64,000 nt of DNA. It comes from Salinigranum marinum (GTDB taxonomy: Archaea > Halobacteriota > Halobacteria > Halobacteriales > Haloferacaceae). Every line of letters begins with the position of its first letter. Position 1 is the stretch's first letter. The DNA lies in assembly GCF_024228675.1 (NCBI RefSeq), contig NZ_CP100461.1, positions 682,001 to 746,000 on the forward strand, in the 5' to 3' direction. A program made the position numbers and the translations under genes. The notes beneath the pieces were generated by a model. That model ran no database searches and had not been told where the DNA came from. It was given only the letters and a program-made list of their open reading frames with translations. Positions 20,053 to 24,888 of this stretch are shown here, piece by piece.

Positions 20053-22413
20053 TCAGTCGGTCGGCTCGTACCGCTTTCTGAACCCCGCCGCCGTCTCGCC
20101 GCCCTCACGTTCGACGAGCGACTGGTACGTCTCCCCGAGCGCTTTCATACAGCGACTGGGCGAGACGTAGTCGAGTTCGTCGGCGACGATCGGCCACGGG
20201 CGCGCCTGCAGTGTCTTCAGGACGAGCAGTCGCTCCTCCCGCGGCGTCAGCAGCCCCTCGTGTTTGGGGCCGACGAGCGCGCGGAGCGCGAGTCGGCGGA
20301 ACGCCCCCGGATCGGCAGTGTACAGTCCCGGCCCGAACGAGGCGTCGACGACGACCCGCCACTCGCGGTCTGTGAGCGTGACCGTGGGCGCCTCGTCGAC
20401 CGCACGGAGCGACGCCCGGACGACGTCGGCGTCGGCGTCGCGGAGCGGGTCCGAGAGCACCCCGGCGATCCGGTCGCAGAACCACCGCGTGTGTCGGTCA
20501 CGGAGCGCCTCTCCCCCCGACGTGAGCGCGTCGAGCATCACCACCGAGTACTCGCCGCTAGTGTCGTTTCGCGAGGTCGAGAGGTAGAGCGTCCGGAAGC
20601 CGTTCGCCCGCCAAAACGAGACCAGCGCGGGCGTCGCCCCGTAGCCGGCGCCGAGCCAGTCGACGCCTGTACCGGACTCGACGGGTACGAGTCGGTCGCC
20701 GAGCGGGTCCGTCTCACGGAACTCCGCGCGGACCCTGTCGAGGAGCGCCGACCCGAGCCCGCGCGAGCGGACGGCGTGGTGGGTGGCGATCCGCATCACG
20801 CGGTAGCCGACCGGGGCGCCGGCGTCCTCGTCGCGGCACTGCGAGGTGAGCACGTCCGGAAGCATGTTGCCGCGAACGCGCTCGCCATCGTACATCTGCC
20901 TTCGAGTCTCGGCGTCGAGCCCGCCCTCGCGGGCGAGAAGCGCGACCGACACGACGTGGCCCTCGTGCGTGAGCGCCCGCAGCGTGAGGTTCGGCGCGTC
21001 GAGCAGGCGAGCCAGGTCGTCCGGCTCGGTGCGGTAGTGCGCCAACACGAGGAGCCCGAACGCCTCACGGAGCCGGTGTTCGTCCGCGAGCAGGTCCTCC
21101 GGGGAGAACGTCTCGTAGTCGGCCGCCGCGGGGGTGGCCTCGTCGACGAGCGGCGCGACCGGCGGACGGGCGTCGAGGAGGAGCGCGCGGAAGACGAACG
21201 ACTCGACGGGGTCGCCGCGGGCGTACCGGATGGGGTCGTCGAGGCGGACGTCGGTGACCGTGTGCGACCCGCCGAGCAGGTGGTCGCGGAAGCGAACCGA
21301 AAAGCCCCGCCCAGCCCCTTCGTAGCCGTGAACGGTCGTGAAGAAGGCGACGCGCTCGGCGTCGAGAAGCGAGGTGAGGACGCGCACCGGGAGCGCCGCG
21401 GCCTCGTCGACGAGGACGACGTCCGACTGGTCGATCTGGTCGGTCGCCTCGGGCGGACGGAGATACCGGATCCGTCCGCCGCTCGCGTTTCCGTCGCCTC
21501 CGGGCGCGGCGACGACCACGTGCCGCTCCTCGTCGTGATCGACGGTGACCCCCAGCGTCTCGAACAGAGCCAGCGCCCGGACGAACACCTCACGGGCGTT
21601 GCGGTACCGCGGCGCGGTCACGAGAACGTCGCGGCCGTCGAGCGCGAGCGCCGCCGCGGCGAGGCCGGCGGCGCTGGACTTCCCCCGACCGCGATCGGCC
21701 TCGACGACGACCGCTTCCGGGCCCCGACCGAGCCGTTCGAGGGCGGCGACGGCCCGCGCCTGGTCCCGCGTCCGACACGCCTCGTACGTCTCGCGCGGAA
21801 ACGCGGCCGTCGGGGGCACCGACGGGGCCGTCTCCCCGGTTCGATCCGTCGTGCGGTCGTCCCCGTCGGTCGCGCCGTCGCGTCGAACCACGCCCGCGTC
21901 GACGTCGACCACGGCCACGCCGGGGTGGGTGCGGAGCACGTCGACGAGCCGCCGCCGGAACCGCCCGGTCACGTCCTCTGCGGTGAACGGCGGGACGGCG
22001 AGGCGGTCGTCGAAGTCGGTTCGGCGGTCGGGCCACTCACAGAGCGGGGGCGTCAGGAGGACGAAGAGCCCGCCGCCGTCGGCCACGCCCGTGAGCCGGC
22101 CAAGGAGGTTCGGCGAGAACCCCTCGTGCGCGTCACAGACGACCAGTCCGCGGGTGGTCCCGAGGAGCGAGTCGGCCTGAGCCGGCGAGACACGCTCGAA
22201 TCGGAAGCCCTCGCGGGTCGTGACGACCGTCACGTCGCTGTCGTCGACTCCCGCGCCATCGGCGGCTTCGAAGGCGGCGTCGAGCCCGGCGTCGCGGTCG
22301 CCGCTCAGCACGAGGAGCCGGCGTTGATCGGTCGCCGTCGCCGCCGCCGAGAGGGAGGCGGCCAGGGCCCGGACGGGGGACGAGGCGGACGGAGCGGAGG
22401 ACGGTCCCGGCAT
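20053..22413 (-). CDS. tmcA: tRNA(Met) cytidine acetyltransferase TmcA
   Basis: 786-aa ATP-dependent RNA acetyltransferase making N4-acetylcytidine (in elongator tRNA-Met in bacteria; archaeal homologs also acetylate other RNAs). The order is: DUF1726-type N-domain (to about 160), helicase-like ATPase with Walker A EADRGRGKSS (about residue 250) and Walker B VVLVDEAAALP (about residue 335), GNAT domain with RSRGLGSALLDRV (about 550), and a C-terminal tRNA-binding tail (LDYVSPSRCMKALG). A disordered Asp/Thr-rich insert near residue 195 is haloarchaea-typical. The upstream ATG at 22413 fits. No neighbouring gene is clearly linked. Confidence 0.94.
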   Translation of the reverse strand: MPGPSSAPSASSPVRALAASLSAAATATDQRRLLVLSGDRDAGLDAAFEAADGAGVDDSDVTVVTTREGFRFERVSPAQADSLLGTTRGLVVCDAHEGFSPNLLGRLTGVADGGGLFVLLTPPLCEWPDRRTDFDDRLAVPPFTAEDVTGRFRRRLVDVLRTHPGVAVVDVDAGVVRRDGATDGDDRTTDRTGETAPSVPPTAAFPRETYEACRTRDQARAVAALERLGRGPEAVVVEADRGRGKSSAAGLAAAALALDGRDVLVTAPRYRNAREVFVRALALFETLGVTVDHDEERHVVVAAPGGDGNASGGRIRYLRPPEATDQIDQSDVVLVDEAAALPVRVLTSLLDAERVAFFTTVHGYEGAGRGFSVRFRDHLLGGSHTVTDVRLDDPIRYARGDPVESFVFRALLLDARPPVAPLVDEATPAAADYETFSPEDLLADEHRLREAFGLLVLAHYRTEPDDLARLLDAPNLTLRALTHEGHVVSVALLAREGGLDAETRRQMYDGERVRGNMLPDVLTSQCRDEDAGAPVGYRVMRIATHHAVRSRGLGSALLDRVRAEFRETDPLGDRLVPVESGTGVDWLGAGYGATPALVSFWRANGFRTLYLSTSRNDTSGEYSVVMLDALTSGGEALRDRHTRWFCDRIAGVLSDPLRDADADVVRASLRAVDEAPTVTLTDREWRVVVDASFGPGLYTADPGAFRRLALRALVGPKHEGLLTPREERLLVLKTLQARPWPIVADELDYVSPSRCMKALGETYQSLVEREGGETAAGFRKRYEPTD

Positions 22414-22452
22414 CGCCCGGGGTTGGGCGGGCGAGGCTAAGGCGGTTCGGGT

Positions 22453-24765
22453 TCAGCTGTCGGTCCGAACCCGGAACTCGAACCGCGCGCCCCCGTCGTC
22501 CCCGGCGGTCGCCGTGACGGTCCAGCCGTGGGCTTCCGCGACGTCGCGGACGATGGTGAGCCCGTAGCCGGTGCCGTCGGTCGCCGTGGAGACGCCGGGG
22601 TCGAACAGCCCGTCGGGGTCGTCGACGGAACTCCCGAAGCCGGGGCCGTCGTCCTCAACGAAGAACCCCCGGCCCGCTCCGTTTTCGAGCACGCCGACCC
22701 GAACCTCGACGCGGTCGGCGGACCGTGGGGCGGTCTGACTGCTGGCGGGGGGGTGGTCGGTTGCGCTGTCGATCTGCGATCGACCGTTCGTCGAGCCGTG
22801 CTCGACGGCGTCGTCGGTCTCCGGCCGACTGCTCGTTGAGCTACGCTCAATGGCCTCACCGGACTGCGCGGCAGTCCTGTTGCCTGTGGAACCGTGCTCC
22901 ACACTGTTCCGAAAGAGGTTCTCGAACAGCCCTGCGAGCCGCGATGGGTCGGCCGACACCGCCGGCAACCCGTCGTCGAGGCTGAGGGTGGCGTCACCGG
23001 TGTCGGTCACGGCCCAGGCGTCCCGGGCCACGGCGTCGATCGTGACCGGCTCGGGGTCGTTGACGACCGCGCCCGTTCGGGCGAGCAAGAGCAGTTCGTC
23101 CACCATGCGGTCCATCCGTTCGAGCGCGTCCTCGGCGGTGTCGAGACGCTCGCTCGACTCCGTCTCCAGCGCGAGTTGGACGTGACCCAGCGCGACCGAC
23201 AGCGGGTTTCGCAGGTCGTGTGAGACGACCGCGGCGAACTTGTCGAGCTGGTCGCGCTGGCGGCGGAGCGTCGCCTCCCTGTCCTTTCGGCGACTGATGT
23301 CGCGGATGACGCCCGCGGTCCCGCGGAAGTCGGCGTCGGTCGGCAGCAGCGAGAGGTGGTCCTCACAGGGGATCGCGTCGCCGTCAGCGGTCTGGAGGTC
23401 GAACTCGAACCGCTCGGGGCTGTCCGTCTCTCTCGCCCGCCGGATCGCCGAAAACGCCGCCTCGCGGCCCTCCTCGGTCTTCAACAGCGCCGCGGCGTCG
23501 GCACCGAGCGCCGTCTCGAAGTCGTAGCCCGTCGCCTCGACGAAGGCGTCGTTGACGTAGGTGAGCTTCCCGACCGCGTCGGTCGTGTAGACGGGGTCGC
23601 CGAGCGCCTCGACGATGGTCTCGACCCGTTCGAGGTGCGCCTCGCGCTCGCGCTGGGTTGTGACGTCCCGACCGATGCCACAGACCCCGACGAGTTCCCC
23701 GCTCTCGTCGTGGAGGGGGACCGTCCGGAACTCGTAGAGCCGGGGGTCGTCCGGCGTGTCGAACCGCGCGACTCCGGAGACATCCTCGCCGTCGAGGACG
23801 CGTTCGATCGTCCGAGTGACGTCCGTCCGGTCGGCGGGCACGAACAGTTCGGTGACGGGCGTCGACGCGAGCTCCACGTCGGTGCGTCCAGTGAGCGCCG
23901 CCAGCCGGTCGTTCCACCGGACGAGTCGTTCGCCGCTCCCGTTGAGGACGTAGAAGACGTCGTCGATGGCGTCGAGCGCCGCGTCGAGCAGGCGGCGTTC
24001 CGCCGCGAGTTTCTCCCGGGTGCGCTCTTCGTCCGTGACGTCACGGACGTAGATCGACAGTCCGTCGTCGCCCGGGAACGCCCGGACGGCGAAGTGAGTC
24101 CCGAGCGGATCGAAGTACGCGTCGAACGAGACCTCCTCTCCGGTCTCCATCGCTCGTCGGAGCTCCGTCTCGAACCGGGTGCCGACGAGACCGGGGAACG
24201 CCGACCACACCTCCGTTCCGAGCAGCTCGGCCGACGCCGCGCCGAGGATCTCCTCTGCGCGTGCGTTCGCGTACGTGTACCGCCACTCGCGATCGACCGC
24301 GATCACGCCGTCGGTCGTCCGCTCGTACACCTCTTGGAGGCGTTCGGTCGCCTCCCGTGCCCGCTCGTTCGCCCGCGCTTCCGAGACCACGGTCCGGATG
24401 CGGTTGACGAGCAACTCGTAGCGCTCCGACCCTCCGCCCTTCTGCAGGTAGCCGCTGACGCCCGCGGCGATGGCTTCGCTCGCGATCTCCTCGTTGCCTT
24501 TGCCAGTGAAGAGGACGAACGGGAGCTCCGGATGTCGGTCGCGGACCCGGCGGAGGAGGGTGAGCCCATCGGTCTCGGGCATGTCGAAATCAGAGACGAC
24601 GCAGTCGACGGCGTCGAGTCGCTCTAGGGCTACCTCGGGATCGGTCTCGCCGTGGACGACGATGTCGTCGTGACGCTCCAGAAACGTCGCGACGAGGTCG
24701 CCGAAGGCGGGGTCGTCGTCGACGTGAAGCACGTCGATGTCGTCGTGTTTCGCGATAGTGCTCAC
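22453..24765 (-). CDS. Soluble receiver-PAS-histidine kinase with a repeat insert in the ATPase domain
   Basis: 770-aa cytoplasmic sensor kinase; no membrane helix. An N-terminal receiver domain (about residues 8-125: HVDDDP, D in DFDMPETD, K in LQKGG) is followed by three PAS/PAC units (about 145-255, 265-380, 385-500). The HisKA box is AVVSHDLRNPL (about residue 530) and the HATPase domain has N-box FENLFRNSVEHG and G-boxes EDDGPGFG and GTGYGLTIV. Between N-box and first G-box is an unusual insert of about 55 residues with three VEHGST-like repeats. Start: GTG at 24765, which follows a TATA box at about 40 nt; a longer frame would begin upstream of that promoter. The signal is unknown. Confidence 0.92.
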   Translation of the reverse strand: MSTIAKHDDIDVLHVDDDPAFGDLVATFLERHDDIVVHGETDPEVALERLDAVDCVVSDFDMPETDGLTLLRRVRDRHPELPFVLFTGKGNEEIASEAIAAGVSGYLQKGGGSERYELLVNRIRTVVSEARANERAREATERLQEVYERTTDGVIAVDREWRYTYANARAEEILGAASAELLGTEVWSAFPGLVGTRFETELRRAMETGEEVSFDAYFDPLGTHFAVRAFPGDDGLSIYVRDVTDEERTREKLAAERRLLDAALDAIDDVFYVLNGSGERLVRWNDRLAALTGRTDVELASTPVTELFVPADRTDVTRTIERVLDGEDVSGVARFDTPDDPRLYEFRTVPLHDESGELVGVCGIGRDVTTQREREAHLERVETIVEALGDPVYTTDAVGKLTYVNDAFVEATGYDFETALGADAAALLKTEEGREAAFSAIRRARETDSPERFEFDLQTADGDAIPCEDHLSLLPTDADFRGTAGVIRDISRRKDREATLRRQRDQLDKFAAVVSHDLRNPLSVALGHVQLALETESSERLDTAEDALERMDRMVDELLLLARTGAVVNDPEPVTIDAVARDAWAVTDTGDATLSLDDGLPAVSADPSRLAGLFENLFRNSVEHGSTGNRTAAQSGEAIERSSTSSRPETDDAVEHGSTNGRSQIDSATDHPPASSQTAPRSADRVEVRVGVLENGAGRGFFVEDDGPGFGSSVDDPDGLFDPGVSTATDGTGYGLTIVRDVAEAHGWTVTATAGDDGGARFEFRVRTDS
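22789..22903 (-). repeat. Three in-frame palindromic repeats inside the histidine kinase gene
   Basis: Three 15-17 bp palindromes lie 45 and 51 bp apart. A: GTCGAGC-CGT-GCTCGAC (22790-22806), perfect. B: TTGAGC-TAC-GCTCAA (22836-22850), perfect. C: GTGGAAC-CGT-GCTCCAC (22886-22902), one mismatch. Read on the gene strand they encode VEHGST, IERSST and VEHGST. The stems differ in sequence, but paired positions change together (CGAG/CTCG, TGAG/CTCA, TGGA/TCCA), so symmetry is kept. Both spacings are multiples of three, keeping the frame. The first copy coincides with the N-box of the ATP-binding domain. Confidence 0.75.
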
Positions 24766-24803
24766 TGAGTCTTCGTCCGGTTGCCGACCGTATTCCGCTC
24801 GGG

Positions 24804-24810
24804 GATATAT
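24804..24810 (-). promoter_or_regulatory. TATA box of the histidine kinase gene
   Basis: ATATATC on the minus strand, about 40 nt before the GTG start, implying a leader of some 10-15 nt. It decides the start codon: any longer frame would include the promoter. Confidence 0.6.
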
Positions 24811-24888
24811 GCCCTCCGGTGGGGTTCTCACAGCTGATAGCCGTCGCGTCGTGCGCCCGCCTCACACGCCGTGACGGCTTTGAAAGCG

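Follow-up and report, generated by a model that had tools for sequence, protein, structure and literature searches.

Why should in-frame palindromic repeats lie inside the ATPase domain of a sensor histidine kinase? The gene in question, within the 64,000 nucleotides of haloarchaeal DNA analysed here (termed the window), encodes a protein with the domain order response regulator-PAS-PAS-PAS-HisKA-HATPase_c (Pfam scan). Its downstream neighbour, at 20053-22413 on the minus strand, has a Walker ATPase motif and presumably encodes a TmcA-like RNA acetyltransferase. The original prediction was that a small in-frame palindromic element, resembling the Rickettsia palindromic elements (RPEs), had been amplified within the kinase gene while its pairing was maintained; covariation, copy-number variation and related inserts now support this. 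Judged from sequence comparison, the insert very probably consists of a few tandem copies of a palindromic mobile element that codes for protein, the haloarchaeal counterpart of the RPEs. Direct support for this reading comes from the positions and in-frame insertion of the units, from empty orthologous sites and changes in copy number, from spread among the kinases of a genome, and from covariation at the DNA level.

Anatomy of the insert and of its units

The insert follows the N-box (RNSVEHG), precedes the strand VEVRVG, and consists of units of 51, 45 and 45 nt followed by a decayed 48-nt remnant (Table 1). In the AF2 model of this fragment, pLDDT is below 50 at residues 126-180, between a helix (106-124) and a strand (186-191); according to the model, the loop behind the N-box is disordered, and it probably tolerates additions. 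Each intact unit contains two hairpins, each with a 7-bp stem and a 3-nt loop: H1, which lies over VEHGST, and H2, which lies over the spacer. In H1a, the V-E-H-G codons of the N-box themselves supply the loop and the first arm. Three palindromes had been noticed beforehand, namely H1a, H1b and H1c; all are present at the predicted centres, their spacings (45 and 51) are indeed multiples of three, and they do translate as VEHGST, IERSST and VEHGST, but they constitute only half of the set. A second palindrome lies in the spacer 22-25 nt downstream of each; this presence of H2 in every spacer had been overlooked, as had the three spacer classes and the units in non-kinase genes. The H2a hairpin occurs in this genome only in kinases, apart from one outside match with one mismatch. 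No hairpin pairing at six or more of its seven positions is left in unit 4.

Synonymous shuffling of the insert leads one to expect 0.25 perfect palindromes with a 7-bp stem and 3-nt loop; there are three, a number reached in none of 5000 shuffles. For palindromes in which six or all seven pairs form, six are observed and 1.35 expected (P = 0.0004), and the kinase insert is the sole place in the window where three such palindromes cluster within 150 bp. These shuffles reject both chance and codon preference as the cause of the palindromes.

Table 1. Features of the kinase gene and its insert (positions in the window)
Feature	Position	Strand	Description	Basis
Host gene	22453..24831	-	sensor histidine kinase, 792 aa	ORF and Pfam scan
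N-box codons	22891..22908	-	NSVEHG, N = residue 642	sequence, coordinates; end of N-box helix in AF2 model
Insert	22714..22890	-	about 59 aa, from N-box helix to next beta strand (VEVRVG)	AF2 model
Unit 1	22852..22902	-	51 nt, VEHGSTGNRTAAQSGEA, 11-aa spacer class	sequence; 33-nt spacer common to seven kinases of the genome
Hairpin H1a	22886..22902	-	GTGGAGC-acg-GTTCCAC, 6/7 Watson-Crick plus one G.T; overlaps N-box	sequence
Hairpin H2a	22861..22877	-	GGACTGC-cgc-GCAGTCC, 7/7	sequence
Unit 2	22807..22851	-	45 nt, IERSSTSSRPETDDA, 9-aa spacer class	sequence
Hairpin H1b	22835..22851	-	ATTGAGC-gta-GCTCAAC, 6/7	sequence
Hairpin H2b	22813..22829	-	GTCGGCC-gga-GACCGAC, 6/7	sequence
Unit 3	22762..22806	-	45 nt, VEHGSTNGRSQIDSA, 9-aa spacer class	sequence
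Hairpin H1c	22790..22806	-	GTCGAGC-acg-GCTCGAC, 7/7	sequence
Hairpin H2c	22768..22784	-	GTCGATC-gca-GATCGAC, 7/7	sequence
Unit 4	22714..22761	-	48 nt, TDHPPASSQTAPRSAD, decayed	length and position only

Across haloarchaea the units are 45, 48 or 51 nt long, with spacer classes of 9, 10 and 11 residues. In the 9-residue class the H2 stem comprises 7 bp and the loop 3 nt; the 10-residue class combines a stem of 6 bp with an unpaired T.C/C.T step and a short tip; and in most members of the 11-residue class a stem of 10 bp closes a 3-nt loop. Successive perfect hairpins are spaced 22 and then 23 nt apart, and H1 copies 45, 48 or 51 nt apart. About 40 distinct H2 stems occur, which share a single reading frame and offset. 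The codon preceding an internal kinase unit is GAC in 128 of 145 cases, and GAC is followed mostly by GCC or AGC; the tetranucleotide CGTC (GACG when read on the coding strand) is frequent there, not constant. Of 939 Asp codons counted in these genomes, 823 are GAC, by far the commonest form, so that the GAC rule is in part merely an Asp rule; and because GAC is shared, the left edge of a unit can be placed only to within the length of this codon. A longer module ending in EPSVADAP accompanies units both in kinases and in a Rieske gene (loci L216, L226, L231, L251, L145 and L320-L323); by eye, it contains two inverted repeats, GGAAGCG..CGCTTCC and then CCTCGG-TC..TC-CCGAGG, the second of which appears once as CCTCTG..CAGAGG.

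Base pairing in the inserts

The inserts of 111 haloarchaeal kinases contain 172 perfect 7-3-7 hairpins, against 17.1 ± 3.9 when synonymous codons are shuffled from a common pool and 20.8 ± 4.3 when each gene's own codons are used--that is, shuffling abolishes about 90% of them. The flanks of these genes have no hairpin excess, either upstream (2 versus 1.3) or downstream (7 versus 4.2). Because the kinases were collected through the string VEHGST, the amino acids of H1 are pre-selected, whereas its codons and the whole of H2 are not.

Pairing had been predicted to exceed what codon preference would yield, and within the N-box copy it does: the wobble pair V3-S3 is complementary in 133 of 143 cases (71.0 ± 5.5 after shuffling) and E3-G3 in 120 of 143 (66.9 ± 5.8). 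These synonymous positions covary in later copies as well, with each of the four possible paired combinations occurring commonly. Copies were sampled by sequence patterns, and their kinship was handled by shuffling within genomes; the signal survives (V3-S3, 127 versus 98.8 ± 4.3; E3-G3, 108 versus 72.1 ± 5.2), so that a few founder alleles within genomes are rejected as the cause of pairing. H2 pairs covary at all codon positions and in all spacer classes--in the 10-residue class, for instance, 70, 72 and 79 of 83 units are paired at three positions, against 27.7, 31.4 and 41.2--and paired residues change together, as in RPEAD with arms GGCC/GGCC, RTESD with GGAC/GTCC and RPEVD with GACC/GGTC. 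Stems are thus kept paired through non-synonymous changes on both arms. Exchanging arms between units lowers pairing from 433 to 358 ± 6, from 569 to 420 ± 10 and from 165 to 106 ± 8, and in an independent sample in which both variable bases were left free, 30 of 32 were complementary.

Certain unpaired bases are conserved too. The T.C/C.T step within the stem of the 10-residue class is kept in 81 of 83 units, and its unpaired T is supplied in 79 of 83 by GCT or ACT, codons that upstream of the inserts account for 71 of 1225 Ala codons (6%) and 32 of 861 Thr codons (4%), respectively. Because unpaired bases are conserved while paired bases vary freely, a folded or dyad-symmetric shape appears to be what matters. 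In the attC sites of integrons, likewise, stems vary with pairing kept and unpaired bases are conserved, which is a mark of folded-DNA recognition; the likeness is an analogy of possible working only, the haloarchaeal unit having neither integrase nor cassette structure.

Copies in kinases and in other genes

Within this genome, which has 53 HATPase_c matches, an insert directly follows the N-box in at least 18 kinases (from 28 protein-search matches that were then inspected), and all but one of the exact H1 palindromes of the genome lie inside these genes. Seven of them have a 33-nt spacer in common at a mean identity of 82%, as compared with 47% for their upstream DNA aligned without gaps, which indicates that units were copied between paralogues. 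A congener's closest kinase (67% identical) has no recognisable units. More widely, the anticipated family-wide occurrence in haloarchaea holds: a VEHGST-coding 17-mer was found in 199 of 292 Halobacteria genomes sampled, a few of these being chance matches in other genes. When 84,980 bacterial and archaeal species were scanned with an exact internal-unit pattern, 41 stretches matched, all of them haloarchaeal. A plasmid search found the unit in Haloferax species, and every one of its haloarchaeal matches bears a histidine kinase or PAS sensor annotation. Viral carriage of the unit is rejected: two exact patterns had no match in IMG/VR, nor did a protein search in phages.

Repeat number varies, as had been suggested, from 1 to 8 H1-like motifs per kinase and, at one orthologous site within a genus, from zero through one to two units. 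Several individual kinases are unusual. One from Natrialba swarupiae (L241) has a long run of near-identical 48-nt units, with six consecutive exact pattern matches, which suggests recent expansion; a second (L061, G069:C1:2752745) apparently loses its reading frame right behind the first unit, in what appears to be a frameshift or assembly error; and a third (L302) has an extra protein repeat, PGTDDHPGTDDH, behind its units.

Four unrelated non-kinase genes contain one or two in-frame units, and some of their orthologues have none. Each of these units is directly preceded by the Asp codon GAC and reads VEHGST, or a derivative of it, in the same frame as in kinases. A Halorussus AMP-binding gene (PF00501) has a 48-nt insertion, EDAVEHGSTTPRSQTH, at a site that is empty in six congeners. 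A VLRF1-type gene of Halopenitus persicus carries one unit within an insertion of 24 residues; in a relative with 94% identity the copy has diverged, and ten more distant relatives are without the unit. A Natrinema thermotolerans gene of no assigned family has two units, one relative has one and three have none. Finally, a Natrinema Rieske gene varies between species: one species has two units, several have one and others none, with the EPSVADAP module also present in four of those with a single unit. Pairing has partly decayed in some ectopic copies (L258, L305, L306). A further six places outside kinases that match VEHGST codons (e.g., L057, L063, L104, L109, L114 and L130) look like chance, there being by eye no unit behind them. 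Among the genes examined, all but four of those with copies belong to one gene family and have them at one site, unlike what a free-roaming element would give.

Origin of the element and its relation to known systems

Could such palindromes be a by-product of something else? If the repeat were a disordered, acidic, tunable linker of the ATPase domain, selected as protein, and the palindromes reflected only the codon preference of VEHGST, then one would understand why units are always in frame, disordered in the AF2 model, fixed in position beside the N-box and variable in number between kinases. As a sole explanation, however, this is contradicted by the loss of hairpins on synonymous shuffling, by the covariation of third positions and by H2 residues that vary freely while pairing stays, and it is considered very improbable. 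Selection on mRNA structure in the kinase transcript--for translation pausing, stability or processing--is improbable as well: strong hairpins do form on the transcribed strand, mainly in one gene family, but G.T pairs, which would be G.U in mRNA, are depleted like A.C pairs (0.38 and 0.42 of the shuffled expectation), no Rfam match was found at gathering scores in 22400-23300, and units occur in unrelated genes too. The equal depletion of G.T and A.C argues for a pairing constraint on DNA rather than on mRNA.

Pairing might also arise, with neither selection nor mobility, if hairpin-templated strand switching during replication copied one arm onto the other; every short palindrome in this loop would then turn perfect and remain so. 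Two observations are what this process would produce: a kinase of genome G226 (L060/L167, G226:C1:736684-736700) has an H1 copy with an inverted loop (VEPCST, cat for atg), and the Rieske sites of two related species (L322 and L323) differ by two complete double changes, GTGGAAC..GTTCCAC versus GTCGAGC..GCTCGAC. Yet arm copying would erase the mismatch that the 10-residue class retains through rare codons, it would leave the lack of palindrome excess in the flanks and the insertions into other genes unexplained, and as the cause of pairing it seems unlikely. Somewhat more credible, though still doubtful, is that units are duplicated and converted among kinases only, with non-kinase copies reflecting rare illegitimate recombination, so that 'mobile element' is too strong a term. 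The great majority of copies do lie at the kinase N-box, which offers direct homology; against this, small samples sufficed to reveal non-kinase insertions in four genera-level contexts (2 of 41 stretches, 1 of 30 loci and one more), whose ends are precise and in frame and which, in two genes, form two-unit arrays.

For the protein-coding mobile element favoured here, the following course may be envisaged. Units would enter genes in frame right after a GAC (Asp) codon and, because they both end in GAC and sit after GAC, whole-unit gain or loss keeps the frame; arrays could then lengthen and shorten by whole units. The N-box codons (GCC GTS GAR CAC GG) match the unit over its first half and would give it a homologous target; most likely, the N-box is the main home because of this match and because the loop behind it tolerates disordered additions. 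The N-box may be the historical source of the unit, as originally proposed, or its preferred target. Pairing would be kept because it is the folded or dyad-symmetric form of the DNA that is copied or inserted. The element would be non-autonomous, moved by homology-guided recombination or by a hairpin-recognising enzyme: recombination of hairpin-forming DNA, guided by homology or microhomology, has about an even chance of being the machinery; a trans-acting HUH transposase that recognises hairpins, of the IS200/IS605 or RAYT type, is a more tentative candidate; and some other machinery is rather unlikely. A bolder possibility, to which only modest credence is given, is a class-wide mobile element recognised by its folded shape, inserting after Asp codons and moved by a dedicated putative enzyme, with kinase ATPase domains as its reservoir. 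If so, stems would drift with pairing kept while the internal T.C/C.T mismatch and the GAC tag stay fixed, and protein sequence would be added without breaking genes.

Elements of this kind comprise the RPEs, the Wolbachia elements, the coding repeats of Methanocaldococcus jannaschii and the PARCELs (PMC3767692, PMC10969869, PMC2996958). RPEs and Wolbachia elements are short palindromic DNAs found in frame in unrelated protein genes, whose frame they leave intact (PMC3767692, PMC10969869). Like RPEs, the haloarchaeal unit has palindromes beyond protein demand, empty orthologous sites and multicopy dispersal by in-frame insertion into unrelated genes, though its dispersal is mostly within one gene family. 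RPEs, however, are about 100-150 bp long, occupy many genes and are confined to Rickettsiales, whereas the haloarchaeal unit is 45-51 bp long, with two hairpins, tandem arrays and one dominant home motif; unit length and host thus place it outside the Rickettsia RPE family. No sequence relation is apparent, the two being set apart by their descriptions.

The M. jannaschii repeats are archaeal and in frame and also include stand-alone gene insertions, according to their citation in PMC2996958; they represent a different archaeal class, likened here by that description rather than by sequence. PARCELs resemble the haloarchaeal unit as tandem protein repeats encoded by palindromic DNA that spread within genomes, but they form a structured, amphipathic 25-residue repeat in genes of no assigned function, rather than 15-17 disordered residues in kinases; the PARCEL paper reports them absent from the archaeal genomes then available. 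REP/RAYT elements are short imperfect hairpins that adjoin a short tag and are regarded as non-autonomous mobile DNA, and the CGTC-tagged REPs include RPEs of R. conorii (PMC3733652). REPs, however, are mostly extragenic, with stem sequences conserved per family and a GTAG or CGTC tag, whereas stems of the haloarchaeal unit vary freely and its constant neighbour is GAC. Haloarchaea do have non-autonomous elements, such as the PATEs, MITEs and short mobile repeats of Haloquadratum walsbyi, PATE palindromes resembling IS605-type ends; these derive from transposons and have palindromes near their termini or inverted repeats, and the relevant parts of that source do not describe them as in-frame kinase coding repeats (PMC3119063). 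The haloarchaeal element thus belongs to a known kind, from whose other members it differs in taxon, length, double hairpin, tandem arrays and home site. No prior description of it was found in the open-access literature, where papers containing the string VEHGS include none on kinases.

In-frame palindromic elements have so far been described chiefly from Rickettsia and Wolbachia, organisms difficult to handle experimentally, and how these elements move is still unexplained. Many genera of Halobacteria carry the haloarchaeal element, which shows recent gains, empty sites and a series of zero, one and two copies; and because it is found in Haloferax, a genus with good genetics, movement of coding palindromes becomes directly testable. 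The element also presents a case in which selection or mutation acting on the shape of DNA is strong enough to make amino acids of a signalling protein change in pairs, an effect that can mislead both coevolution analysis and the annotation of haloarchaeal kinases.
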